A stretch of 28,270 nt of DNA, from IMG/VR virus record IMGVR_UViG_3300017763_004017, positions 1-28,270 of that record; one strand, 5' to 3'. Of this stretch, positions 5,342 through 20,497 are shown in pieces. How positions within the stretch are numbered: the first letter of the stretch is position 1; every line of letters begins with the position of its first letter. The notes below the pieces were generated by a model. The model saw nothing but the letters and a program-made list of their open reading frames with translations. It ran no database searches and was not told the origin of the DNA. The DNA comes from a virus. A program made the translations under genes and the position numbers.

Positions 5342-5785
5342 ATGTCTAACCCAAAAATAGGATGGCAAAAATACGAAGACTTTCTGGATAAACAAATAAA
5401 TTCTCCAGCTATAGATAATATAATGCAAAGTATATCTTCTAAAGTTCAAGATGTTGAAACTGAAGAATACCAAGATGACTCAGCGTATAAAGATTCATCA
5501 GAATATACTGAAGATGAATCTGATTCACAATCCATGATGTTTCCAATGTCAGCGCAGTTTTTTCAAGACCTATCAATGTTGTCTACATATGATTGCTGGC
5601 TAGGACATACTAATTTTGATATAACTCCAATGATTAAGAATAAATTAGATAATATTGATGGAGTAGAAGTACTAAAAATTTGTAGCCGTTACAGGTTTTT
5701 TATCGGACTTGGCAGGATGTTTAAGTTCGCAGATGTAAGAACGAATGTTGAAGATGCTATTATACCTAAAGAGGAGAAAGAATGA
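5342..5785 (+). CDS. hypothetical protein (147 aa)
   Basis: Starting at the AGGAGG-supported ATG, the product begins MSNPKIGWQKYEDFLDKQIN. It contains a very acidic low-complexity middle (about residues 35-65, rich in Asp, Glu, Ser and Tyr), followed by a folded C-terminal half with STYDCWLGHTNFDIT and VLKICSRYRFFIGLGRMF. I do not recognise the family. It overlaps the sigma-factor gene by 4 bases (ATGA), so the two are translationally coupled and may act together, for example as regulator and sigma factor. That pairing is inference only. Confidence 0.7.
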   Translation: MSNPKIGWQKYEDFLDKQINSPAIDNIMQSISSKVQDVETEEYQDDSAYKDSSEYTEDESDSQSMMFPMSAQFFQDLSMLSTYDCWLGHTNFDITPMIKNKLDNIDGVEVLKICSRYRFFIGLGRMFKFADVRTNVEDAIIPKEEKE

Positions 5786-6291
5786 CAGATTTTTTGCCGT
5801 TTGGCCCAGTTATTGACAAGGATATGGAAAAAGCTTTGAATAATAAAGATATTATTAAAATTATGAATAAAGCAGCTTATAGATTTTCTAATCAAATTGA
5901 TAGAGATGAACTATATAGCTGTCAGCTAAAAGCTCTATGGCAAGCACTTGTTAATTTTAAGCCCGATAAGGGTAGCAAATTTACTACTTATCTATATAAT
6001 GGAGTTTTTATAGAGTGCTTAAAAGAGGTACAATTTCAAGATAAACATAAGAGGTTCTCGAAATGTATATTACATAATAATGTACAGACAAAACCTGATT
6101 TATCCAAGGAAATGGTGGACATATTTGACGAGCTAAGGAATGACGAAGAGAGAGAGCTAATTATGGACAAATACAGCAATATGAGCATTAAGGAAATATC
6201 CATGAAACACAATATTAACCGTGAAACAGTTAGAAAAAAGATAAAAAATATCATGGCAAGAATCAAAAAACAGCTCGAAGAAGTGTATTAA
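5782..6291 (+). CDS. phage RNA polymerase sigma factor (sigma70-like, regions 2 and 4)
   Basis: The 169-aa protein has the minimal two-domain sigma layout. Residues about 25-85 match region 2, with DELYSCQLKALWQALVNF followed by DKGSKFTTYLYNGVFIECL, the 'F..ya...i...i...' part that binds core polymerase and the -10 element. Residues about 113-165 match region 4, with a helix-turn-helix in SIKEISMKHNINRETVRKKI (135-154). Region 1.1 and the long non-conserved insert are absent, as in ECF-type or phage late sigma factors. It should redirect host RNA polymerase to phage late promoters. Its location directly upstream of the virion gene block supports that role. The start overlaps the previous stop by ATGA. 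Confidence 0.82.
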   Translation: MTDFLPFGPVIDKDMEKALNNKDIIKIMNKAAYRFSNQIDRDELYSCQLKALWQALVNFKPDKGSKFTTYLYNGVFIECLKEVQFQDKHKRFSKCILHNNVQTKPDLSKEMVDIFDELRNDEERELIMDKYSNMSIKEISMKHNINRETVRKKIKNIMARIKKQLEEVY

Positions 6292-7012: not shown

Positions 7013-7039
7013 AGCTACCCCTCCCAGTGGGGGGTAGCT
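7013..7039 (+). terminator. GC-rich hairpin after the virion gene, probable terminator
   Basis: A perfect 9-bp stem pairs AGCTACCCC (7013-7021) with GGGGTAGCT (7031-7039) around a 9-base loop. The downstream tail is TATATTTAG rather than a pure T run, so this could be a weaker terminator or an mRNA-stabilising 3' hairpin for the gene ending at 6993. Confidence 0.65.
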
Positions 7040-7080: not shown

Positions 7081-7671
7081 GTGATTGATATCAACCCAGA
7101 AGTAGTAGCACTTGTATTTGGCGGGATAAGCGGAATTACTGGGCTTTGTACATTAGCGTGGAAGAAATTTTTAAAGCCAATCGTCAAACTTTGTAAAAAT
7201 CAAGACTTTTTTGTTCAATCTGTTGAGGATATCAAAAAAGAATTGACTACAAATGGAGGCAGCAGTCTCAAAGATTCTATCATGTCTATGAAAGACAGTT
7301 GCGCCAGAATAGAGAACAGACAAAAGGTAATCATACAACGAACAAAAGCAGCATTGCATTATAGCAATGTAGCATTGTTTGAAACGGATGAAACGGGAAG
7401 ATTGGTATGGAGCAACGCTAATCTGTGCGATCTAACCAAGGATATAGTAACTAGTTTAGAAGGTTATGATTGGATCAACTTGTTCATGGAGGATGAAAGA
7501 GAAGAGGTGCTTGCTGAATTTAAATCTTGTTTGCAGATGAACAGGAGATTCAGCAAAGTAACACATATGCAGAATAAAAAAATTGTCAGACTTTTAGGTT
7601 ATCCTTATAGGATTTCTAACGAAGAGCATGGCGGTTTTTTAATTAGTATAACACAAGAAAATGAGGTATAA
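7081..7671 (+). CDS. membrane-anchored PAS-domain protein
   Basis: The gene uses a GTG start at 7081 with a purine-rich GAAAGG upstream. The 196-aa protein has an N-terminal membrane helix (about residues 7-27, VVALVFGGISGITGLCTLAW), a helical or coiled-coil connector (about 42-92), and a C-terminal PAS-like domain (about 93-191). The PAS call rests on VALFETDETGRLVWSNANLC (97-116), the usual 'xxfxtDxxGxixxxNxa' opening, then GYDWINLFMEDEREEV, the 'G....l.hpeDr' helix, and the closing strand GGFLISIT. No kinase, cyclase or HTH output follows. PAS domains sense small molecules or mediate dimerisation. The next genes encode a small membrane protein and a protease, so a signal or assembly role at the membrane is possible. 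PAS proteins are uncommon in phages. Confidence 0.7.
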   Translation: MIDINPEVVALVFGGISGITGLCTLAWKKFLKPIVKLCKNQDFFVQSVEDIKKELTTNGGSSLKDSIMSMKDSCARIENRQKVIIQRTKAALHYSNVALFETDETGRLVWSNANLCDLTKDIVTSLEGYDWINLFMEDEREEVLAEFKSCLQMNRRFSKVTHMQNKKIVRLLGYPYRISNEEHGGFLISITQENEV

Positions 7672-7672
7672 A

Positions 7673-7894
7673 ATGGCAGACGAAAAAAATTCTCCAGCAT
7701 TTAGTCTCAACGTAACAGACGTTGTAGAAATTACTAAAAATACAGCGCTTGTCGCATTAGCTGCTGGATTGACTTATCTAGGTGAAAATCTTGGAGATTT
7801 AGATCTTGGTAACGTTGGCGTTATGCTTGTTCCCGTTGCAGCTGTAGTTATTAATACTTTAGTTAAGTGGGCAAAAAATAACGTACCGGAGTAA
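7673..7894 (+). CDS. small two-helix membrane protein, holin-like candidate (73 aa)
   Basis: The start at 7673 (MADEKNSPAF...) is chosen over an in-frame ATG at 7661 because GAGG lies at a normal distance and the overlap with the PAS gene disappears. The product has two hydrophobic stretches, about residues 26-38 (TALVALAAGLTYL) and 47-64 (NVGVMLVPVAAVVINTLV), and a basic-to-polar C-terminus (KWAKNNVPE). The size and topology resemble class II holins, but no family is recognised. Its place between a PAS membrane protein and a cysteine hydrolase makes a role in lysis or membrane remodelling plausible but unproven. Confidence 0.6.
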   Translation: MADEKNSPAFSLNVTDVVEITKNTALVALAAGLTYLGENLGDLDLGNVGVMLVPVAAVVINTLVKWAKNNVPE

Positions 7895-7897
7895 AAC

Positions 7898-8821
7898 ATG
7901 TTTGAACAACCTAGAGACTTACTAAAAGCTTACAAGGATGGTTTTGTAGGCTCATGGTGTGACCCAGAAGACACAGATAAACTTTTAGGAGAACTGCCTC
8001 ACCCTCTATTTGGTGTGGCTGCTTCTAATTTATATAGTAGCGGAGAAGGTAAGCTGGCCCTGCTCTATAAGTCTGTGCAAAAATTTGACCCAACATTTGG
8101 AGCGCATGAGAGGCAAACCACAGGAGATTGTGTATCGCACTCAACTAGAAACGCTGTTGATGTTACTCGATCTCATGAAATTATTAGGGGTCAGGCAGAA
8201 GAATTTGTAGCAAGAAGTGCCACTGAAGCTATCTATGGTTCAAGAGGTCATGGTGGTCAGGGAATGTCATGCTCTGTAGCTGCTAGATTTGTTCATCAAA
8301 ATGGTGGTATACTATTAAGGAAAGATTATGGCTTTGTAGACCTTTCTACTTATGATAGTCGAGTTGGGACTAGATGGGGAAGCCGTGGAGGAGTTCCCGC
8401 AGAAGTAAAAGATGAAGGCAAAAAACATCAAGTCAAAACTATTAGTATGATTAAAACTGTTGAAGAAGCAAGAGATGCTATTGCCAATGGGTATGCTTTA
8501 AGTGTCTGTAGTAATTATGGATTTTCCTCAAAACGTAATAAAGATGGCATAGCGCGTAGATCTGGGTCTTGGAATCACGCGATGTCATGGGTGGCGATGG
8601 ATGACAGTAGAGAAATTCATGACGAAACTTTGTTCTTAATACAAAATAGCTGGGGAGTTTTTAATGGCGGTCCAAAACGTCACGATCAACCAGACGGTAG
8701 TTTTTGGATTCGTGAAAAAGATGCCAGAGGCATGTTGTCACAAAACGGTGCATGGGTATTTAGCGATGTTGACGGATTTCCACCACGAAAAGTGGATTGG
8801 ACTATAAACGAAATATTTTAA
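7898..8821 (+). CDS. papain-like (C1-type) cysteine protease
   Basis: The 307-aa protein carries the three active-site elements of papain-family peptidases in the right order. The nucleophile Cys78 lies in QTTGDCVSHS, with Gln73 in the oxyanion position. His227 lies in GSWNHAMSWVAMDD, and Asn250 in FLIQNSWGVF, the hallmark NSWG. No signal peptide or long pro-domain is obvious; the first ~70 residues could serve as an N-terminal docking region. C1-type enzymes cleave peptide bonds. In this setting it may process virion proteins, act on host envelope peptides during entry, or serve as a lysin. It sits 3 bases after the holin-like gene and 11 bases before the giant Cys-rich gene, which suggests either is a partner. 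The fold call is strong; the role is open. Confidence 0.85.
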   Translation: MFEQPRDLLKAYKDGFVGSWCDPEDTDKLLGELPHPLFGVAASNLYSSGEGKLALLYKSVQKFDPTFGAHERQTTGDCVSHSTRNAVDVTRSHEIIRGQAEEFVARSATEAIYGSRGHGGQGMSCSVAARFVHQNGGILLRKDYGFVDLSTYDSRVGTRWGSRGGVPAEVKDEGKKHQVKTISMIKTVEEARDAIANGYALSVCSNYGFSSKRNKDGIARRSGSWNHAMSWVAMDDSREIHDETLFLIQNSWGVFNGGPKRHDQPDGSFWIREKDARGMLSQNGAWVFSDVDGFPPRKVDWTINEIF

Positions 8822-8832
8822 GGTAGGTAGTA

Positions 8833-11800
8833 ATGTCTTTTACTGTACGTGTTGCAAGATCTCCTGAAGTCCCATTTACAAGCCGTAGGAATTTGTATAA
8901 CGACGTTTACGAAGAGACTCCTGTAGACGACGAGTATCTTGAGATAACAATACCAGATAGAAGCCCCCACGTTGTAGTAGAAGAATATGGTAACTCAAGT
9001 TGTCCAGAGTATTATTATAGGTCAGTTGATCAGTTACACATGTTTTACCGTAACGGTCGAGTTGGAACGGTTATCAGCAACGGATTTGTAGGCAGAATTG
9101 GAGGGGAAGTCGAGCAAGCCCAACTTGCAAGTAATCGCTTGGAAACTGCCTCTTTAAAGAAAGTAGTAATAATATATGAGCAAGAGTGTCGTTTTGATAC
9201 CAAAGCTTGGGAAGATGATGCAGACAAAAGAGAAAAAGAACTACTTACAGAAATAGGCGAAGGAAATGCCTGCCCAGCTCCTGAACCATGTCCTCAAGGA
9301 TATGAAAGAGATATAATAGGAACAGATATTGTAGATCCAGTTAACAATGCTCTAGGTTATATATATTGTTCAGTATATTCTAGCGCGTGTTACCCGCTTC
9401 AAGAAGATGGTACGGATTGTACTGACTATACATTCACTCCCGTCACTAGTTGTACAGACCCAGATTATCCAATACAATACATTAGTGAACCTTCCCTTGA
9501 AAACGAATTAACATTTAATAAATATACGTATAAAGGGCTAACTTCTGAAGGCTGTCCTGTATATAGAGAGTGTTGCGAACCAGAAACCTGTCCAACTGGC
9601 TATGAAAAAATATTATATCCTAGTCACCGTAGTAACAGTCCCGGCTCATTGAACACCTTTGGCAATTTTGATCTTGAAGACCCATGCCCAAGATATATGT
9701 GCGTTCCGATAGATTCTGACCCTGTTACCCCTTGTAATAACACTCCTGCACCATGTCCTGACGCAAATCACACTAGAATTGTCACTGGTATTGATGAGGC
9801 TGGTTGTAAACTATATGGCATGTGTTGTGCAGATGATGGGTCTGGCAGTTGCGCCACTACAACCACTACGACTTCAACAACAACGACAAGCACCACTACT
9901 AGCACTACTACGACGGCTTGCCCAACTCCAGCGCCTTGTCCTAGTAATTTTTCTGCACAGGTAATTGGAGTAGATCCAGTAACTGGGTGTACTCAATTTG
10001 GAACTGGCTGTTGTGATACTACAGATTCTGGCTCAAATGTATCGTGGTGGGAATCATCCACTATTGAGTGTCCTGTTGGCAGCGGTCAATGGGTAGAAGT
10101 AGAAGACGATGGTGCTGGATGTCCCTCGTTTGACTGTAGTTCTGCTGCTACAACTACAACTACAACAACCTCAACAACTACTACTAGCACAACGACGACT
10201 ACAACCGCTGCTCCGACCACAACAACGTGTTCACCGCCTTATGACTGTCCAGAAGGATATACTCCAGATGGAACTTTTTTCCAACAAGATGGATGTGATC
10301 AACACAACTGTATCCCAGTGACTACAACTTCAACTACAAGCACAACAACTAGCACTACCACAACAACAACTAGTACAACTACAACTTCCACTACAGCTTG
10401 TCCAACAGGGGCAGAATTTAATGCGGCAAACTGTACGGATTTATACGAAGTACTTAATCAAGATGGATTTACAAGTAATGGTTGTCCAAACTATGTGTGT
10501 TGTGATTATTCATACTTGCCTGATTTAGATTGTCTTTACGGCGTTGATTTTATTAAACCACCGATTAATGTTAATATTCCCAAACCTTGTGGTGAATACG
10601 TATGTAAAACCACGCAACCGCCAAATGGTTGTTCAGGCGAGCCAGCGCCATGTGGGGAAAATCAATACAGAGAAACTTCTATCGGACTGACGTTGGGGCC
10701 AGACGGACTAGCTATAGAGTGCGTTAATTATAGCGATTGTAAAGACAGGCCGTCAGCACCTGAACACAGACCTTGTAATGAAATAATACTAGGATCTATA
10801 TCTGGGCCAAATCTAACTATGAACGGTAAGTCTGTGCAAAATTGCATATGTGCTTCTGGTACTTTCTATGATCCCGACAGGCAGATGTGCGCAACGACTT
10901 TACCTCCAGTGGTGTGTGACTCGCCTCCCGCTGTTCCACCCCCATGCTCAGACGGAACATTGCCCACTATAATAAAAGACATATATGGCTGTACAATTGG
11001 CTACACATCATGTGATTGTCCAGAGTTTAACGTTCCAGCACCTGAGTGTTCAGACGGCTCTTCGCCGGAAGGAACTTTCGACGACAACAACTGCCAAACA
11101 GGCTGGGGAGACTGTCCAGAAGAGCCAGAAGATTGTTGTCCTCCAAAAATACCTTGTGATAACGGTAACGAACCAGTGCCAATATATGCAATGAGCGTAA
11201 GGATGGAAGGCAATTCAACGGACTCTGATTGTTGCCCATCTGGAATTATTGGATGGGATTGTAACCCTGATCCTTGCGACACTTCTCTTCCTGATTATAC
11301 TTTTTGTGGCTGTCCCGACAATGCAGATGACTGTGAGTGTATAATAGTTGAAGAAATGGACTGCTCTTCGTACTGCTCTCCGCTCAGTGTAGAAGAAGAA
11401 TTTACAGACGCTTGTGACAATGTTACTGGCTGCCTTTGTAGTACAACAACAACGACCACTCTCCCTCCCCCTGACAATAGCTGTGAGGGCACTTGCGGCA
11501 GAACGTGCTTGTATGGAGCGCCGGAGCCGATACAGAATCCCGTTACACAGCCCGATGGTAGCCAAGCATTTGAGGATAGTAAAGATGAAGTAGGCAATAT
11601 TTGTTGTGGATGTCCAGATTTTCAATGTCCTCCTGAACCACCTCCTCCCGACTGTTCTTTTGGTGGAGGAGATCCCATTTGGTTCACTGGACCCGATGGA
11701 ACAATGTGTGTTAGTGGCTACGATTCCTGCAATACAACCACGGAAGCACCACCAACATGTCCACCGGGACCGGATGACCCACAATGCGAACTCGGTGGAG

Positions 11801-13809
11801 GAAGACCAATAACCTCGGAAACAGCTCCCGGCTTGTGGTGTCATACTGGTCATGAACCTTGTAATACCACACCACCACCAACAGACCCGCCGCCGCCAAC
11901 CTGTCCTCCTGAACCAGACGCACCAGAATGTCCAGAAGGAACAAGCGCTATACCACTGAAAGACGGTGAAGAACGATCCGATGGTTTAGACTGCGTTGTG
12001 GGTTGGGGTCCATGCGAATGTCCAGAGTTTGACGTTCCAGCGCCTGAGTGTGCAGACGGCTCTTCGCCGGAAGGAACTGAGGACGAGAACGGCTGCCAAA
12101 CAGGTTGGGGTGAGTGTCCTCCCCCTCCACCAGATTGCGATTGCGATGCTGACTCGTACCCGCCGTGTCCACCTAAGCATGGAAGAGGCATACAGATGGG
12201 TACTAAAACGGTTTTAATAGAGTCGCCGTTTGGCGGTTTGCCACAAACAGTGACATATGATATAGTAGTAAGAGACCTTTGTGGTAATACATGTCTGTCA
12301 GGGTGTACTACTTCTTCTACTACCTCAACTACCACTTGTGCGCCATTTAACGATCCAGAACCCGAATGCGCACCCTCCTCCAACGGAGATCTCGTTTTCG
12401 TTGAAGGGATATATGATGGCCTTGGATGCCAAACAGGTTGGGGTGAATGTCCATGTCCAGAATTTTCAGATCCAGCACCCGAGTGCGAAGATGGATCTTC
12501 ACCAGATGGAATTTATGATGATGATGACTGCCAAACTGGTTGGGAAAAATGCCCCTGTCCAGAATTTGACGAGGAAGCACCCGAATGCGTAGATGAAGAT
12601 GGTAATATTTCTTCTCCTGAACCAGAATCAGATGATAATGACTGTCAAATAGGCTGGGGAAAATGCCCCTGTCCAGAATTTGATGAACCAAAGCCCGAAT
12701 GTCCAGACGACACTTCTCCATCTGGAGAATTCGATGAGGACGACTGCCAAACTGGTTGGGGTTCATGTGATTGTCCAGCGTTTAACGAGCCAGCACCCGA
12801 ATGTGAAGATAAAGATGGTAATATTTCTTCGCCATCAGGAACTTTCGATGAGAACGACTGCCAAACTGGTTGGGATGAGTGTCCAGAAGATCCTGATCCA
12901 CCGCCAGAAGATCCTGATCCAACACCAGAAGATCCTGATCCAACACCAGAAGATCCTGATCCAACACCAGAAGATCCTGATCCAACACCAGAAGATCCTG
13001 ATCCAACACCAAACAATCCTCCGAGATATCCACCACGACCACCTTTACCTTCTGCACCACCGATACCACCGATACCACCTATGGGTCCATTTCCACCATT
13101 TCCTAATCCACCAAATCCAACGTTAGGACCACGACCACCAAGAACAACACCTGATATTCCCGGCCCACCTGAATGTCCAGACTTTACGATGGCATCACCC
13201 GTGTGCGACGATGGATTTCCTGTCGAGGCAATTTATGGTGCTGATGGCTGTCAAACAGGTTGGGATCAATGTCCTGACTTACCTGCACCACCAACAGCCC
13301 CGCCGCCGTCAACCACAGCAGCACCAACGCCCTGCACATGCGCAGGAGGAAATTCTATTAATTGTAACTGGTCTTGGGACACTTTTACTAACTATCCCAA
13401 TCAATGCTGTGGTGATACTAGTGATTACTTAGATGAGATAACTGAAGATTTGTCAAAAGAGTTAGAATACCTTGAGACGAAGCATACATGTGAAACAATG
13501 CCAAGTTCTTTATGGGAAGATCTGTGTTTAGGCACTAGAACTATAAGTGACGTAGCTAATGAATGGCTTCAGCAACAGTGTACAGTTTCAGAGGTCATAG
13601 AGTGGTGGGTTTTCAGCGGTGCCGATGGAGACTGCGGTGACAGTACTTGTGCTTCGCTACGAGAGATTTGTGGGGACTCAATGCCTACCCATGAGGGCAG
13701 CGAAGGCGCTACGGTTCAAACCGTCGCTGACTGTCGGTGTCCCTCACCGCCGGAAGAAGAATGTACAGGCCAGTTTGCAGAAGGCTACGAAGAGAACTCT
13801 TATCCGTAA
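8833..13809 (+). CDS. giant Cys-rich, Thr-tract repeat protein (1658 aa), probable virion appendage
   Basis: Residues 1-150 form a cysteine-poor domain. From about 153 the protein becomes a chain of Cys-rich modules with about 140 cysteines in total, far above normal for a cytoplasmically made protein. Thr/Ser tracts at 342-361, 440-465 and 497-521 look like mucin-type linkers. A four-Cys module, consensus CPEFxxPAPECxDGSSPxG then CQTGWxxC, recurs at least eight times between 729 and 1480. Residues 1352-1393 are six copies of EDPDPTP, followed by a ~55-residue proline-rich stretch. The C-terminus (about 1500-1658) is a distinct Cys-rich domain. No signal peptide or membrane helix is visible. 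The position beside fibre-type genes and a protease, and the disulfide potential, suggest an exposed tail or capsid fibre. Function is inferred. Confidence 0.8.
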   Translation: MSFTVRVARSPEVPFTSRRNLYNDVYEETPVDDEYLEITIPDRSPHVVVEEYGNSSCPEYYYRSVDQLHMFYRNGRVGTVISNGFVGRIGGEVEQAQLASNRLETASLKKVVIIYEQECRFDTKAWEDDADKREKELLTEIGEGNACPAPEPCPQGYERDIIGTDIVDPVNNALGYIYCSVYSSACYPLQEDGTDCTDYTFTPVTSCTDPDYPIQYISEPSLENELTFNKYTYKGLTSEGCPVYRECCEPETCPTGYEKILYPSHRSNSPGSLNTFGNFDLEDPCPRYMCVPIDSDPVTPCNNTPAPCPDANHTRIVTGIDEAGCKLYGMCCADDGSGSCATTTTTTSTTTTSTTTSTTTTACPTPAPCPSNFSAQVIGVDPVTGCTQFGTGCCDTTDSGSNVSWWESSTIECPVGSGQWVEVEDDGAGCPSFDCSSAATTTTTTTSTTTTSTTTTTTAAPTTTTCSPPYDCPEGYTPDGTFFQQDGCDQHNCIPVTTTSTTSTTTSTTTTTTSTTTTSTTACPTGAEFNAANCTDLYEVLNQDGFTSNGCPNYVCCDYSYLPDLDCLYGVDFIKPPINVNIPKPCGEYVCKTTQPPNGCSGEPAPCGENQYRETSIGLTLGPDGLAIECVNYSDCKDRPSAPEHRPCNEIILGSISGPNLTMNGKSVQNCICASGTFYDPDRQMCATTLPPVVCDSPPAVPPPCSDGTLPTIIKDIYGCTIGYTSCDCPEFNVPAPECSDGSSPEGTFDDNNCQTGWGDCPEEPEDCCPPKIPCDNGNEPVPIYAMSVRMEGNSTDSDCCPSGIIGWDCNPDPCDTSLPDYTFCGCPDNADDCECIIVEEMDCSSYCSPLSVEEEFTDACDNVTGCLCSTTTTTTLPPPDNSCEGTCGRTCLYGAPEPIQNPVTQPDGSQAFEDSKDEVGNICCGCPDFQCPPEPPPPDCSFGGGDPIWFTGPDGTMCVSGYDSCNTTTEAPPTCPPGPDDPQCELGGGRPITSETAPGLWCHTGHEPCNTTPPPTDPPPPTCPPEPDAPECPEGTSAIPLKDGEERSDGLDCVVGWGPCECPEFDVPAPECADGSSPEGTEDENGCQTGWGECPPPPPDCDCDADSYPPCPPKHGRGIQMGTKTVLIESPFGGLPQTVTYDIVVRDLCGNTCLSGCTTSSTTSTTTCAPFNDPEPECAPSSNGDLVFVEGIYDGLGCQTGWGECPCPEFSDPAPECEDGSSPDGIYDDDDCQTGWEKCPCPEFDEEAPECVDEDGNISSPEPESDDNDCQIGWGKCPCPEFDEPKPECPDDTSPSGEFDEDDCQTGWGSCDCPAFNEPAPECEDKDGNISSPSGTFDENDCQTGWDECPEDPDPPPEDPDPTPEDPDPTPEDPDPTPEDPDPTPEDPDPTPNNPPRYPPRPPLPSAPPIPPIPPMGPFPPFPNPPNPTLGPRPPRTTPDIPGPPECPDFTMASPVCDDGFPVEAIYGADGCQTGWDQCPDLPAPPTAPPPSTTAAPTPCTCAGGNSINCNWSWDTFTNYPNQCCGDTSDYLDEITEDLSKELEYLETKHTCETMPSSLWEDLCLGTRTISDVANEWLQQQCTVSEVIEWWVFSGADGDCGDSTCASLREICGDSMPTHEGSEGATVQTVADCRCPSPPEEECTGQFAEGYEENSYP
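9856..9915 (+). repeat. Thr/Ser-tract linker 1 (ACN-rich low-complexity DNA)
   Basis: Twenty consecutive codons encode only Thr and Ser (residues 342-361). They use mixed ACA, ACT, ACC and ACG codons, so the tract is kept at protein level rather than being a simple DNA slippage product. It separates two Cys-rich modules. Confidence 0.9.
10150..10227 (+). repeat. Thr/Ser-tract linker 2
   Basis: Residues 440-465 of the giant protein are almost all Thr with a few Ser, Ala and Pro. The tract sits between two Cys modules, as linker 1 does. Codons are mixed. Confidence 0.9.
10321..10395 (+). repeat. Thr/Ser-tract linker 3
   Basis: Residues 497-521 form a third Thr/Ser-only linker. Shorter versions recur near 11440 and 12307, and in the neighbouring 774-aa protein on both sides of its Hint domain, which links the two proteins. 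Confidence 0.9.
11017..11115 (+). repeat. dispersed copy of 99-bp four-Cys module (copy A)
   Basis: This 99-base unit encodes one CPEF...CQTGWGDC module. A second copy at 12019-12117 is nearly the same at DNA level, including the shared stretch GACGGCTCTTCGCCGGAAGG. That points to recent duplication or gene conversion within the gene. Confidence 0.85.
12019..12117 (+). repeat. dispersed copy of 99-bp four-Cys module (copy B)
   Basis: This is the partner of copy A at 11017-11115 in the same frame, with differences concentrated in the acidic loop between the second and third cysteine. Confidence 0.85.
12337..12882 (+). repeat. five tandem four-Cys modules (99-114 bp each)
   Basis: Modules run at 12337-12450, 12454-12552, 12556-12666, 12670-12768 and 12772-12882. 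Each keeps the C...P-E-C...C-Q-x-G-W-x-x-C pattern, and the loop between Cys2 and Cys3 varies in length and is rich in Asp/Glu. Short identical DNA such as TGCCCCTGTCCAGAATTTGA recurs at module borders (12550 and 12664). A further module lies at 13174-13272. The acidic loops could bind calcium, which is inference. Confidence 0.88.
12886..13011 (+). repeat. six 21-bp tandem repeats encoding EDPDPTP
   Basis: The unit is the seven codons GAA GAT CCT GAT CCA ACA CCA. Copies 2-6 are identical at DNA level and copy 1 differs only at ACA to CCG. It encodes an acidic proline-rich rod, directly followed by a proline-rich stretch to about 13170. Exact identity suggests recent expansion and likely copy-number variation. 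Confidence 0.95.
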
Positions 13810-14364: not shown

Positions 14365-16689
14365 ATGAATACTAATAATATATCTAAGATCATTAAGTTT
14401 TTAACTAATGGTCAACAAGTTTCGTTTGTTGAAGGGGGCGGTCTACAAGGCATAGATATGCTAGAGTATGGTGAAACATATTTATTTATTAGTAAAGACA
14501 CTTCTCTCCCGTATACTAACTGCGATGATGGAGAAATAGACTTTAGGTTCAACGCCTTTAAGCTAGACACTCCATCTAATCCAGAACAACTAAAAGTTCA
14601 GCAGGATGGTAAGTGCAAGCTGAATAGCCATACGGCAGAAGTCACTATGGTTTTTAATATTTCAGACCAAATAGATAATGGAACTACTGTAGAGTACAGC
14701 TTTGATAATTTTGCAACAGAAGATAATATTAAGACTGCTACTCATCTACAATCTAAAGTAGAGACGTTTCCTCTGTCTGATTTTCTAGATGATAACGAAA
14801 ATAGCTTGGGCAAAACTCTAATAGATGGACAAAATGCCTTTGTATCTACTACTATATATTATAGAGACCCTAATTTAAGAACTAAGATATATACAGAGCG
14901 CATGGTAGTGCTAGTTGAGTGCGAAGCCTGCGATTTTTCATCAGTTACTAATCAGACAAACGGCTTATGTAACGAAGGTTACTTGGGAGTTTTTGATGCC
15001 GAGGGTTGTCTGCAAAACTGTTTGTCAGACCCTACCAACACGACGACTACAACTACATCGTCAGCCACAACAACGTGTCCCCCTGTGTTGTCAGGTGGTT
15101 GGTGTAGCTATGACTCCTTGAACCGTCGCATCATTTATTATGACCCCCCAAATCAAACATGTATAAAACACATATTTTGTATTGCCGGTTGCCCCACGGT
15201 GGATACTCCGATTCAAATGTCGGACGGTAGTGAAAAACTCGCTGGTGAATTAGTTGTGGGTGATAAATTATTAACACAACATGAAATAACTATGGAGTCT
15301 GGTGAGCATGAAATAACATACGTTGGAATTAAGTTATCTGAAACTCTCAAACTATCTTTTGAGGATGGGGGTACTTTCACATGCTCTCCTAGTCATCAGT
15401 TCTATCATAAAAATCAATGGGTTTCAGCGTATGACTTAGTGGTTGACGAAGTGTTACAAGGGCGCACAATATCTAAAATAGAAGACAACGGCGTACAAGA
15501 TGTTGTTATTATCCAAGTAGATGATGCTCATACTTATGTGGCAGATGAATTCCTCAGTCACAATAAATCGGTTCTAGCTACTTCCCAACCAACAAATCCT
15601 CCTCCTATAACATCTGCCGCACCAACAACAACCACGACCCGAGCGCCATGCGATCCACCAGTTCTTGAACCTGCGTGTCCTGATCTTGCTGGTAAAATAC
15701 ATGTAGGCTGGACTAGATACGGCACTTGTCCAGACGATTGTCCAGTAGATGATCAATGTAGATATGAAGACATTCCAGATGTTCCTTGTTCTTGTGATGC
15801 ATTAGAGTCATCGGATCTTATGAAGCAACTTCCAGTTGCTGGCTGTACAAAACTTATAGAAGAAACTACTAGTATACAATGTTATAATGAAGACGGTTCA
15901 AAAGGAACCGTGCTACAATGTCCCACTTATAGAATTGTAGCAGTAGACGAACCGAGGTATGGGTGTGAAACAAATAATAATGTAAGTGATCCTCAAGGAA
16001 GATGTCCCGAGGGATACAATATGCATTATAATGGCTACGGTTTTTCCTGCGTCAAACCCGAGCCTTTAACAAATCAAGAAGTTGAAGAGTGGAAACAGAA
16101 GTATAGCGATCATTATGAGTTTTTAATTGATCTATTAGAGCCAGAAGGTACATTTGAAACTCATCCAGAGTTATTTTATAATGATAATCCAAATTGGCCC
16201 CTAGATAATCCAGCTTTCATCATGATGCCGTGTATGGAATACGGCGATAATTTTTATGGTGGATGCGATATTGGAGTCTTTGGTGATGGTCAAAGCGTAT
16301 GGGAACAAATGATATCACAAGATTTCAGAAATCATTCTTTTCCTTCGCCATGTAAACAAAGTTGCGGATGCGATCCTACTAGAGCTTACTACTTTCAAAA
16401 CGACCCAGCGATGTTTGCAGATCAGTGTTTAGATAGCGATGGATCACCCAACGGAGAGTGTGTAGGAGAGATTGTAACTAGCGTAGAGGCTGGCGAATAC
16501 AAACTATTTGAGAGAACTCCGACGATACACAGTGGCTATATATTTTCCAATGCTAGTCTGTGCAATATACCAGTAGCTAAATACGATGTTACCGACGTTA
16601 AGCAAGTAGAATCAATAAACGTCTTTTGGAGTCATCCTTTCCCCAAAAATGATGGGGTAACACCAGTATGCGCAGAAACCTTGGAGTAA
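14365..16689 (+). CDS. Cys-rich virion-type protein with embedded Hint (intein-like) domain (774 aa)
   Basis: The N-terminal ~190 residues form a beta-rich domain. A Thr tract (about 225-237) and a Cys-rich segment lead into a Hint domain at 276-400. The rest (about 401-774) is again Cys-rich and begins with a Thr/Pro linker. The Hint domain starts at Cys276 (AGCPTVDTPIQMSDGS) and has a block-B-like SPSHQFY with His344. It ends HTYVADEFLSHN, followed by Lys401-Ser402. The linkers and Cys spacing match the giant protein upstream, so both likely belong to the same structure. The Hint domain predicts self-cleavage or cleavage-ligation after folding. No homing endonuclease is present. The start at 14365 lies 11 bases after the previous stop. 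The Hint call is strong; the host-protein function is inferred. Confidence 0.82.
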   Translation: MNTNNISKIIKFLTNGQQVSFVEGGGLQGIDMLEYGETYLFISKDTSLPYTNCDDGEIDFRFNAFKLDTPSNPEQLKVQQDGKCKLNSHTAEVTMVFNISDQIDNGTTVEYSFDNFATEDNIKTATHLQSKVETFPLSDFLDDNENSLGKTLIDGQNAFVSTTIYYRDPNLRTKIYTERMVVLVECEACDFSSVTNQTNGLCNEGYLGVFDAEGCLQNCLSDPTNTTTTTTSSATTTCPPVLSGGWCSYDSLNRRIIYYDPPNQTCIKHIFCIAGCPTVDTPIQMSDGSEKLAGELVVGDKLLTQHEITMESGEHEITYVGIKLSETLKLSFEDGGTFTCSPSHQFYHKNQWVSAYDLVVDEVLQGRTISKIEDNGVQDVVIIQVDDAHTYVADEFLSHNKSVLATSQPTNPPPITSAAPTTTTTRAPCDPPVLEPACPDLAGKIHVGWTRYGTCPDDCPVDDQCRYEDIPDVPCSCDALESSDLMKQLPVAGCTKLIEETTSIQCYNEDGSKGTVLQCPTYRIVAVDEPRYGCETNNNVSDPQGRCPEGYNMHYNGYGFSCVKPEPLTNQEVEEWKQKYSDHYEFLIDLLEPEGTFETHPELFYNDNPNWPLDNPAFIMMPCMEYGDNFYGGCDIGVFGDGQSVWEQMISQDFRNHSFPSPCKQSCGCDPTRAYYFQNDPAMFADQCLDSDGSPNGECVGEIVTSVEAGEYKLFERTPTIHSGYIFSNASLCNIPVAKYDVTDVKQVESINVFWSHPFPKNDGVTPVCAETLE
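15190..15564 (+). other. Hint domain (bacterial intein-like, no endonuclease)
   Basis: This 125-residue segment runs from Cys276 to Asn400 of the 774-aa protein. Features seen are the N-terminal Cys, 'lADGseKLAGELvVGDKLL' style N-block spacing, a central S-P-S-H motif, and a C-terminal His399-Asn400 pair. The +1 residue is Lys, not Cys, Ser or Thr, so standard protein splicing is unlikely. C-terminal cleavage at Asn400 and N-terminal thioester cleavage or transfer at Cys276 are the expected chemistries, as in BIL domains. Confidence 0.82.
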
Positions 16690-16692
16690 AAA

Positions 16693-16986
16693 ATGGCATC
16701 ACAATATAGTAAAATACAAGTCCGAAGAGGAACTAACGATGAGCTAAGATCTAGCACGTTAGTGTTAGCCAGCGGAGAACCAGCTCTTGCGCTTGATACC
16801 AACACCCTCAAGACAGGCGACGGGTCTAGCACATGGGCTAGTTTGCCAGTAACTAACAGTCACTCCGATATTCCCACCTCTGGTACAGCCCAAGGTGAAA
16901 AAGGTCAAACCGCCGTAGATAGCAACTATTTATATGTTTGTTATGATACTAATCAATGGAAAAAGATTAGTTTATCGGCATTTTAA
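16693..16986 (+). CDS. tail-fibre N-terminal-domain protein (Mtd_N-like), 97 aa
   Basis: Residues about 7-52 match the N-terminal domain seen in phage tropism determinants and tail fibres: KIQVRRGTNDELRSSTLVLA, then SGEPALALDTNTLKTGDGSS and TWASLP. That is the 'iqxRRGT...lxxGExgxxxdtxxlkxGdGxxxWxxLp' pattern. The remaining ~45 residues form a short second domain ending in a Trp/Lys-rich strand (YDTNQWKKISLSAF), which resembles a closing beta-hairpin. It is a paralogue of the next gene. It probably attaches a small fibre or adaptor to the virion. Start 16693 lies 3 bases after the previous stop. Confidence 0.75.
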   Translation: MASQYSKIQVRRGTNDELRSSTLVLASGEPALALDTNTLKTGDGSSTWASLPVTNSHSDIPTSGTAQGEKGQTAVDSNYLYVCYDTNQWKKISLSAF

Positions 16987-17045: not shown

Positions 17046-17648
17046 ATGCCAGATTATACTAACACAAGAATTCAGATAAGAAGAGGAACAGGAGATTCAT
17101 TCAGTAGCGCCAATCCAATTCTAGCCAGTGGTGAACCAGCATTTGCTGTTGATACCAACGTCTTAAAAATTGGAGATGGTGACAGGGCTTGGTCAGCATT
17201 GCCTACAATCAACAGTTCGGTTGAGCAAAAAGTAGGTGGTACACAAACGTTGGGAGACGGTGTGTCTACGTCAGATGCCGCATTTCTGCCAACTGCTAAT
17301 CTAGACCTAATTAAAGTATCTACATTAAACGCAAACTTTACCATACACGGGGTAGATGATGACTACGCAATTAAGCAATTTGTTTTGATAAATGATGTAA
17401 CTTCTGGAGACAGAAACATCACAATCAAAAGTCAAAGTACAACAGCTGTTGCAGCTAACAGAATTTATTGTATCCCAAGATCTGACATACTTTTAAAGTA
17501 CGGTCAAGCAGCGTCGTTTACTTACGATGCAACTCTAGATAAATGGTTAGCATATAAAGTAACCGCAAACAATATTCTCGCATTAAGCAGCTCAGAATAT
17601 ACAGCTTTAGCAGACAAAGATCCCAACACAATATACGTAGTAACCTAA
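17046..17648 (+). CDS. tail-fibre-like protein, paralogue of upstream gene (200 aa)
   Basis: The N-terminus repeats the same Mtd_N-like domain (RIQIRRGTGDSFSSANPILA, then SGEPAFAVDTNVLKIGDGD and AWSALP). The C-terminal half (about 65-200) is a beta-rich domain of a different type, containing FTIHGVDDDYAIKQFVLIND and ending DPNTIYVVT. 'ALADKDPNTIYVVT' resembles short end-caps of tail fibres. It is expressed with the preceding gene but separated by a 59-base spacer. A role as receptor-binding or fibre-joining protein is likely. Confidence 0.75.
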   Translation: MPDYTNTRIQIRRGTGDSFSSANPILASGEPAFAVDTNVLKIGDGDRAWSALPTINSSVEQKVGGTQTLGDGVSTSDAAFLPTANLDLIKVSTLNANFTIHGVDDDYAIKQFVLINDVTSGDRNITIKSQSTTAVAANRIYCIPRSDILLKYGQAASFTYDATLDKWLAYKVTANNILALSSSEYTALADKDPNTIYVVT

Positions 17649-18561: not shown

Positions 18562-18792
18562 ATGCCAACTGATGTCGCTCAAAACGCACACGCTTCAACC
18601 ACAACTCTTAGGAACGGAACTGTCACAGTAAGCTGTTTTCCTACTGGAACTTCGTTTACAATTGATACCAGCACCGATCCTAGTTTTGTTGAGTTTGATA
18701 CGAGTTTAACACCAACAGAACTAGAAACTCTCTACACTGCAAAATTCGATGATATTTCTTATTACAACGCTGTGGATGGAGGCAGTCCATGA
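18562..18792 (+). CDS. small virion-associated protein candidate (76 aa)
   Basis: The 76-aa product begins MPTDVAQNAHASTTTLRNGT and has a beta-rich core with one Cys. The AGGAG at 18551-18555 gives a good start. Its N-terminus resembles that of the 211-aa virion protein at 6358 (NAHAS, then Thr and N-G-T-V), suggesting a shared docking segment. It overlaps the next gene by 4 bases (ATGA). The function is unknown. Confidence 0.6.
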   Translation: MPTDVAQNAHASTTTLRNGTVTVSCFPTGTSFTIDTSTDPSFVEFDTSLTPTELETLYTAKFDDISYYNAVDGGSP

Positions 18793-19148
18793 AAAGATTT
18801 TTGGAATTATGCTTTATTAGTTTAATTTCTGTCATAGGAACATTGCACTTTGTAAATAACCCTCCGTCTATAATTGATGGAGGAACACCTCTTAGTTTTA
18901 GCAGCGAACCTTCAGAAGTAGAGTTATGGAAGCAAGAAGTCAAGAAGTCCTTTGACGAGTCAGAGAAAGAAGTATTTGGAGTAAAACCAACTCCAGATAT
19001 AGTCGGTCCACATCCAGATCCAGATAAATGCATTTGCAAAGGCTCTGGAGTTATAGTCCACGGAGACGGTCACAAAACTGTGTGTCCATATCACGGGAAA
19101 AAGGATGATACTATTGTCGTTCAACCATTAAAAATTTTGGAGGAATAA
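18789..19148 (+). CDS. signal-peptide protein with CxC...CxxH zinc-binding-type motif (119 aa)
   Basis: The N-terminus MKRFLELCFISLISVIGTLHF is a signal peptide or membrane anchor, followed by a helical charged region (45-62). The C-terminal CICKGSGVIVHGDGHKTVCP (81-100), followed by YH, gives C81-x-C83...C99-x-x-H102 with two G-x-G turns, like half of a DnaJ-type zinc-binding element. The protein is likely exported or anchored. Cys8 within the hydrophobic stretch is not in a clear lipobox, so a lipoprotein is not supported. It starts a run of four envelope-directed genes and may act in lysis (spanin-like) or envelope modification. Confidence 0.7.
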   Translation: MKRFLELCFISLISVIGTLHFVNNPPSIIDGGTPLSFSSEPSEVELWKQEVKKSFDESEKEVFGVKPTPDIVGPHPDPDKCICKGSGVIVHGDGHKTVCPYHGKKDDTIVVQPLKILEE

Positions 19149-19414
19149 TGGATACAGAAGTTTTATTAAGGCTAATAGCCATTGCGGTTGCCGCAAGTTT
19201 ATTGTTTGTCAATTTTGATGTTAAGCCCTACGTGACTTACGTAAAAAATTTATTCAAAAGAAAACCTAGCCCTGAAGTTCAAGCGCAGGCCGCTTCATTC
19301 ATTGAAGTAGTTGAAACTTGGCACACGCTCAGAAACCAATGTGAATCGTTAGAGCTTAAATCTGCCGTCGAAAAAATTGACGAGGTATTTCCGTTGTTAA
19401 ATACGGAGGAATAA
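19148..19414 (+). CDS. single-pass membrane protein (88 aa), unknown
   Basis: An N-terminal membrane helix (about residues 5-21, VLLRLIAIAVAASLLFV) is followed by a basic stop-transfer segment (KNLFKRK) and a helical cytosolic or periplasmic domain with one Cys. It overlaps the previous gene by 1 base and is followed 2 bases later by another signal-bearing gene. The size and topology would suit an inner-membrane spanin component, but no family is recognised. Confidence 0.65.
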   Translation: MDTEVLLRLIAIAVAASLLFVNFDVKPYVTYVKNLFKRKPSPEVQAQAASFIEVVETWHTLRNQCESLELKSAVEKIDEVFPLLNTEE

Positions 19415-19416
19415 TA

Positions 19417-19875
19417 ATGTATAAAAAAGTAATAGCACTCGTCTTGCTTGCTTATTCTGTATTTGGCCTCAATGTAGATTTATCTAACATAGATATTAGG
19501 CCGTTTATTCCAACGCCAAGTATACTAAACATAGAAAAGCCTAGCGATCCAATCTTGTCAATATCCAAAAACATTTCTGCTCTAGTAACAGATCAAGATG
19601 ATAGAGAAAAATTAGCTATTTTTAATTATGAATTCTCTAAAAGAATTTTAGGATATAATACTGACTGTCAGCAAGTAAATGATGTGTATGTAATAGCAGG
19701 GAAGTTGTTTTTTAAATCAACACTTGCTGATAAGTACGACGGACTTGCGGAGAGCATATCTGATATTCTCAGATCAGTCATAGGAGATGATAATCATCAA
19801 CTAAGCAAGTCAGAGCGCAAAGCTTTACACGCATACTTTGAAGGAGTGTCTTGGGCGTTAATTCAGAAAGGTTAG
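19417..19875 (+). CDS. exported protein (152 aa), unknown
   Basis: MYKKVIALVLLAYSVFGLNV is a classic signal peptide, probably cut after Gly17. The mature part is a mostly helical domain of about 135 residues with one Cys (in NTDCQQVNDV) and a C-terminal helix pair ending WALIQKG. It should act in the periplasm or on the cell surface. No catalytic motif is recognised. Confidence 0.7.
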   Translation: MYKKVIALVLLAYSVFGLNVDLSNIDIRPFIPTPSILNIEKPSDPILSISKNISALVTDQDDREKLAIFNYEFSKRILGYNTDCQQVNDVYVIAGKLFFKSTLADKYDGLAESISDILRSVIGDDNHQLSKSERKALHAYFEGVSWALIQKG

Positions 19876-19879
19876 TAAT

Positions 19880-20497
19880 ATGTCTCCTAAAGAAGCAAAA
19901 GAATTAATATCAAGCTTATTTACAGAAGAAGGAGCTGAAATAAACGGAATTAAAATAGCAGCAGAGTCTCCTTTAAAGTTTGAAGTAATTAAGAATGAAG
20001 ATGAATCAATAACAATAAATTTTGTTGATAACAAACCCAAGGCGTCTATAAAAAGAATTTTTACAATCTCAGCCACAGTCGTCAGTATCACTCTTAAAGA
20101 TGAGCATGGTTTTTTTGAACTTAAAAATTTCCCATCTATACCATTTCCATATGATGGATTTTTTAGCTCAAGCGCAGACGGCGCAAACGTCTCTAGTATA
20201 CAGCAAATCATAGACACAAAATATTGTGGGGAAAAGAAAAAAATTGCAAACTTATGTTTGTTTTATGCTGACGAATGGGCTAAAATATCTAGTCAGGCAA
20301 CATGCTTTAAAACCGCCACAGCAAAAGATAAAAGAAAATTGAAGAAGCAGTGTGTTGACTTTGTAACGCATAATGTTAAAAAAGAAATGCAAAAAGAGTA
20401 TGGTTCTGTTATACTGACATACCTATTGGTATTCATTATAATCCCTACTGTGTGCAAGTTTATTGTTTACAAGTTGCTTGAAAAATATTTTGATTAG
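19880..20497 (+). CDS. tail-anchored membrane protein (205 aa), unknown
   Basis: The first ~110 residues form an alpha/beta domain (NGIKIAAESPLKFEVIKN, then the FTISATVVSITLKDEHGFFE strands). The next part is helical with four Cys between 116 and 158. Residues 177-198 (VILTYLLVFIIIPTVCKFIV) form one membrane helix near the C-terminus. It would face the cytoplasm with a C-terminal anchor. It is the last gene of the envelope group; 43 AT-rich bases separate it from the RNR gene. Confidence 0.7.
   Translation: MSPKEAKELISSLFTEEGAEINGIKIAAESPLKFEVIKNEDESITINFVDNKPKASIKRIFTISATVVSITLKDEHGFFELKNFPSIPFPYDGFFSSSADGANVSSIQQIIDTKYCGEKKKIANLCLFYADEWAKISSQATCFKTATAKDKRKLKKQCVDFVTHNVKKEMQKEYGSVILTYLLVFIIIPTVCKFIVYKLLEKYFD

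Follow-up and report, generated by a model that had tools for sequence, protein, structure and literature searches.

A putative lysis-type gene cassette with a papain-fold protease and a two-helix membrane protein in an unnamed phage family

Introduction

The window analysed here, an IMG/VR record of 28,270 bases, carries at positions 7081-8821 three co-directional plus-strand genes that encode a membrane-anchored PAS protein, a 73-aa protein with two predicted membrane helices and a papain-fold cysteine protease. We lean towards reading this trio as a lysis cassette of the holin-lysin type, in which the papain-fold protease would be the lytic enzyme. The reading starts from the gene order, the selection acting on the genes, the folds, the conservation of the catalytic residues, the alternation of holin-like partners and the lack of recognisable peptidoglycan hydrolases. 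Since no holin family matches the 73-aa protein and no peptidoglycan hydrolase is recognised in the enzyme, the trio would work like a lysis cassette and is not presented as a canonical one.

Organization of the locus and its relatives

The reading frames lie where the first-pass annotation had placed three nearly abutting genes, with gaps of 1 base between the PAS and 73-aa genes and 3 bases between the 73-aa and protease genes, and Shine-Dalgarno-like sequences (GAGG/GGAG) are located within the preceding gene. A terminator-like hairpin with an 11 bp stem (7013-7039, plus strand) separates the gene of a 211-aa protein from the PAS gene. A hairpin, differing in sequence, was present at that position in each of the 16 loci folded, so that a separate transcription unit for the trio probably begins past 7013-7039. 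Sigma-70-like sites were not in excess in a promoter scan. A sigma-70-like protein (regions 2 and 4, E ~2e-4 to 8e-4) is encoded at 5782-6291, upstream of the clade-1 module, and is a candidate late sigma factor.

The protease has 163 viral relatives in IMG/VR, a phage family without a name whose contigs reach 223 kb; the best 80 of the 163 show 53-88% identity, and the relatives split into two clades. Neither the protease nor the PAS protein gave a tblastn match in isolated phages (INPHARED, 50,697 phage records). A cellular origin was considered and rejected: a genome scan gave only four protease contigs, with phage-like gene order where read and with bins in three phyla. These MAG contigs of the same phage-like lineage (L089-L092) were binned to SAR202, Lokiarchaeota and Flavobacteriales, and for the same reasons the bins are not taken as hosts. 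Co-occurrence was counted over 86 loci, window included, with families built by iterated HMM.

Purifying selection acts on all three genes of the trio, with dN/dS values of 0.04-0.18 between the window and four relatives and down to 0.03 between two relatives. Taken together with the presence of the PAS, 73-aa and protease genes side by side in 24 of the 86 loci, these values argue that the trio is not a product of chance. Tail-fibre genes adjoin the module or interleave with it, and the vicinity of tail fibres is a usual place for lysis genes.

Several other genes were observed in the window and its relatives. A 774-aa fibre-like protein (14365-16689) contains a Hint domain (intein-like, PT-HINT E 1.1e-4, residues 295-401) ending in SHNKS, and two fibre proteins (16693-16986 and 17046-17648) have a Major tropism determinant N-terminal domain (E 2.7e-12 and 2.8e-10). 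A Cys-rich protein of 1658 aa with poly-Thr linkers (8833-13809) has no Pfam match and is matched in a single relative, at 98% identity; a Sulfotransferase (PF03567, E 3.7e-18) is encoded at 625-1230. Glycosyltransferase and methyltransferase genes are numerous in G005, a 135.8-kb relative with an 83%-identical protease. Its module is found near fibres and the ribonucleotide reductase. G005 also has a ClpP-like protease adjoining the terminase (L088:4684-5331); a gene that looks like the ClpP-like one is found upstream of the module in clade 2.

The papain-fold protease

The proposed lysin is the 307-aa product of the gene at 7898-8821 (plus strand). It scores 23.8 bits against Peptidase_C1 (PF00112), above the cut-off of 20.7, and this was the sole family matched in the Pfam scan of the protein (P0003), which gave no peptidoglycan-hydrolase family. 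An alignment of 23 sequences shows no variation at residues Q73, C78, H227 and N250. In the predicted model much of the core has a pLDDT of 70-90 and the first 47 residues, where an inhibitory propeptide would be expected, fall below 50; the VIA Z scores are 18.7 with xylellain (3ois; 3.6 Å over 219 residues), 17.3 with papain (1ppn) and 17.2 with Cwp84. By profile, tetrad and fold the protein is therefore assigned to the papain (C1) family, in agreement with the C1-type protease first annotated here, and proteolytic activity is predicted.

The protease shares with xylellain, papain and Cwp84 (4d59) the fold (Z 17-18.7) and the Gln-Cys-His-Asn tetrad. It differs from these C1A enzymes in its ~15-20% identity to them, in the conserved block GDCVSHxTR that surrounds its Cys, in the 47 N-terminal residues that have no confident predicted fold, and in that its sequence shows no evident signal peptide or other secretion signal. 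The view that papain-type proteases are unusual in phages proved too strong, since mycobacteriophage Lysin A and other phage proteins have papain folds; those of phage lysins are already known, the N5 domain of Lysin A being papain-like/C39 (PMC3314691). Structural matches of the window protease, which likewise has a papain-like fold, include models of Lysin A. However, N5 belongs to an endolysin of several domains, wall-binding parts among them, whereas the window protease stands alone, with no wall-binding or other domain recognised.

The 73-aa protein and its alternates

The gene of the 73-aa protein (type h73) extends from 7673 to 7894 on the plus strand; an in-frame ATG upstream at 7661 would give 77 aa, but the start at 7673 is favoured by the relatives. 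The second hydrophobic stretch of the window protein is strong (mean KD 2.4) and the first weak (1.35), the first being stronger in several relatives (up to 1.83). The protein also has a GEN..D.DLG loop and, near its end, an invariant W.

A small two-helix protein of one of three types is present in 85 of the 86 protease loci (h73 in 32, hol59 in 4 and tsefw in 50, with one locus carrying two), and the single locus with none is cut by the contig end. The first-pass annotation had proposed that the trio be looked for in related phages, and what is conserved is the protease with a two-helix partner, the PAS gene being optional. The hol59 protein of L090 matches PHROG 9987 'holin' (phrog_9987) with E 5.2e-5, and a clade-2 module protein encoded by a neighbour gene matches PHROG 6918 'holin' at 0.004. 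The 73-aa family itself matches no holin family profile; only hol59, its replacement in position, does so. Being small, having membrane helices and adjoining the proposed lysis enzyme, the 73-aa protein is a probable holin. Its description as a holin-like two-helix protein thus stands, on the two hydrophobic stretches and on the holin-profile match of the alternate.

At L043:8176-8655, and also in other clade-2 loci, a two-helix holin-like protein is fused to a ComEA-type HHH_3 domain (E 2e-17), a membrane-anchored DNA-binding design.

The PAS protein

The first gene of the trio (7081-7671, plus strand, GTG start) encodes a 196-aa protein in which an N-terminal membrane helix leads through a long coiled coil to a PAS domain at the C-terminus. 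Its score against PF00989 (17.4 bits) is below the Pfam gathering score of 22.6, and the PAS assignment is based on the predicted fold: the model has a pLDDT of 82 and its top PDB matches are all of PAS/LOV type (Foldseek prob 1.00, E 1e-5). Helix, coiled coil and fold agree with the initial description as a membrane-anchored PAS protein without output domain. The basic stretch WKKFLKPIVKLCK follows the membrane helix, and hence the PAS domain is probably cytosolic. The protein resembles in its PAS fold stand-alone PAS/LOV proteins such as RsLOV and the PAS of NifL, but unlike them it is tethered through a membrane helix and coiled coil at its N-terminus and shows no output domain or recognised ligand motif; inspection by eye revealed no FAD, heme or LOV motif.

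The PAS gene accompanies the 73-aa gene in every one of the 24 loci that have it. Of the 32 loci where the 73-aa gene and the protease are kept together, 8 lack it, as do all 54 others (50 with tsefw, 3 with hol59 only and 1 truncated), and the PAS label on the tree changes at least five times by loss or gain. Gating of the small membrane protein by PAS sensing, as first suggested, is therefore rejected as the core or general mechanism, PAS being absent from 62 of the 86 protease loci. The protein cannot be essential; it is an accessory that may regulate lysis timing where it is present. No paper on PAS with holins was found in the literature searched.

In several loci a plain membrane-helix/coiled-coil protein takes the PAS position, as in L017 and L020 of clade 1, where it follows the 211-aa-type gene. 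The proteins of these two loci have weak matches to bacteriocin-associated membrane-protein, Rz-like spanin and holin families. The bacteriocin-associated proteins (PHROGs 1625 and 2429) are small membrane proteins with a helix and a coiled coil, weakly matched also in clade 2; the window PAS protein itself matches neither PHROG. Homology between the membrane/coil part of the PAS protein and the membrane-coil family of clade 2 was tried and found no support (hhalign probability 5).

Accessory envelope proteins

Four further plus-strand genes of the window, between 18789 and 20497, encode small envelope proteins. The signal-anchored protein of 18789-19148 has a zinc-finger-like motif, CxCxGxGxIxxGDGHxTxCPYH; its family is lipoprotein-like in L015 and L022, where the signals end in IAGC and VLGC. 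It is followed by a small membrane-anchored protein (19148-19414), found with the protease in 81 of the 86 loci, by a signal-anchored helical protein (19417-19875), found in 82 and missing from loci that are truncated or taken up by long fibre genes, and by a protein with a C-terminal membrane helix (19880-20497) that belongs to the module in clade 1. The 18789 and 19417 families are fused in L090 and L091, and at L089:8928-9614 the zinc-finger protein of the module (18789 family) is fused to a secreted thioredoxin. These fusions suggest that the proteins joined in them act together in the periplasm.

Search for peptidoglycan hydrolases

No member of Amidase_2, Phage_lysozyme, M15_4, M23, SLT, CHAP or NLPC_P60 was found in any of 30 large relatives (50-223 kb). 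As a calibration, a PF00112 search of the same kind recovered the known protease from only 11 of its 30 carriers and missed that of the window; because most known carriers escape it, the zeros mean 'no clear member' only, and a divergent hydrolase could be missed in the relatives, whose contigs may be incomplete. In G005 no peptidoglycan hydrolase was found among 115 proteins subjected to hmmscan, one scan giving the best 25 of 59 families, beyond which, from the order of the list, families should have E > 2e-5; about 34 further reading frames were judged by eye or lay across segment borders. The earlier observation that no typical endolysin is seen in the window thus extends to the 30 large relatives for the seven families and to G005 by profile scan.

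Host and envelope

A bacterial host is indicated by the sigma-70-like genes that the window and G005 carry. PSD1 genes (~1e-73) are carried by 5 of 30 relatives, both clades being represented, and by 0 of 14 controls; their nearest plasmid match is from Singulisphaera (39%), and the protein is absent from INPHARED phages. In G005 the PSD1/planctomycete cytochrome gene is followed by a DUF1501-like gene (L082:964-4570, by eye), and no paper describing DUF1501 as a viral auxiliary gene was found in the literature searched. A disulfide-bonded protein sacculus has been described as the wall of planctomycetes (PMC2754498), although peptidoglycan is present in several of them (PMC5814848). The planctomycete-type PSD1 of the relatives makes a host with a protein-rich envelope plausible; this host is a guess drawn from relatives only, because the window itself holds no planctomycete-type host marker.

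Proposed mechanism and alternatives

From these data we infer how the cassette would operate. The 73-aa protein would open the inner membrane at a set time, and the protease, produced in the cytosol with no evident signal peptide, would reach the periplasm through the permeabilised membrane and there cut an envelope protein or, possibly, a cell-wall peptide. The small envelope-anchored proteins of 18789-20497 would help the protease. The PAS protein would be a membrane-tethered accessory that may tune the timing of a system able to do without it. Hence, from the initial proposal of a lysis or membrane-signalling cassette, the lysis half gains from the holin-like partners and the missing endolysin, and PAS gating falls as a general mechanism. 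In an extended form, improbable as a whole, the papain-type protease freed by the holin and a secreted thioredoxin/zinc-finger partner would jointly break down the disulfide-linked protein envelope of planctomycete-like hosts, and in some lineages the membrane-tethered PAS sensor would couple lysis timing to the redox or energy state of the cell.

The many membrane proteins of the module exceed the needs of a plain cassette and count against lysis, as do the missing holin-profile match of the 73-aa family and the weak first helix of its window member. One alternative is host takeover or superinfection exclusion, where the protease and small inner-membrane proteins would disable envelope or signalling proteins of the host and PAS would report the redox state of the membrane. 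In its favour, the small anchored 19148 and 19417 families are almost as widespread among the loci as the protease, replication and nucleotide genes are close to the module, and the clade-2 two-helix protein adds a ComEA-like HHH domain. Such a function is nevertheless rather unlikely in our judgement, given the interleaving of tail-fibre genes with the module and the holin-profile match of at least one two-helix partner, and the lineage would then have no recognised enzyme for lysis.

The papain-fold enzyme could also serve in an ordinary holin-endolysin system, as a peptidoglycan endopeptidase comparable to CHAP, NlpC/P60 or the mycobacteriophage N5 domains. Known lysins do use related folds, and the peptidoglycan of several planctomycetes (PMC5814848) would offer a substrate, but the best resemblance of the window protein is to C1A proteases (xylellain, papain and Cwp84, Z 17-19) and its lack of a recognised wall-binding domain points the same way, so that we consider this unlikely. 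Less probable still is a virion-associated module in which the protease matures neighbouring tail-fibre or surface proteins or is injected. The large Cys-rich fibre genes that immediately follow the protease in the window, and the conserved 211-aa and 76-aa genes that flank it, would agree with this reading. However, the large fibres are not beside the protease in most clade-2 loci or in L014, L016 and L017, the head/tail block of G005 is on the other strand, and the alternation of two-helix proteins would be left unexplained.

The favoured lysis reading has its closest parallel in the holin-endolysin cassettes of tailed phages, where a two-helix protein likewise adjoins a cytosolic enzyme without evident signal peptide near the tail fibres, with accessory envelope proteins present. 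The trio differs from them in that its enzyme is a C1A-like protease and not a recognised peptidoglycan hydrolase, in the PAS protein placed in front, and in a holin-like protein of no known holin family. The papers searched contained no description of a whole lineage whose sole candidate lysin is a stand-alone C1-like protease, accompanied by exchangeable two-helix partners.

The highly conserved protease beside a small holin-like protein, in genomes where a recognisable wall-cutting enzyme is missing, suggests that this lineage bursts its hosts by cutting protein. If so, a widespread aquatic (marine) phage lineage would rely on a protease, and on no peptidoglycan hydrolase, to lyse cells, and would show how phages handle bacteria whose envelope rests largely on protein. 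Moreover, the three alternating types of two-helix partner would constitute a natural set of holin candidates, with which the question can be tested using single genes.
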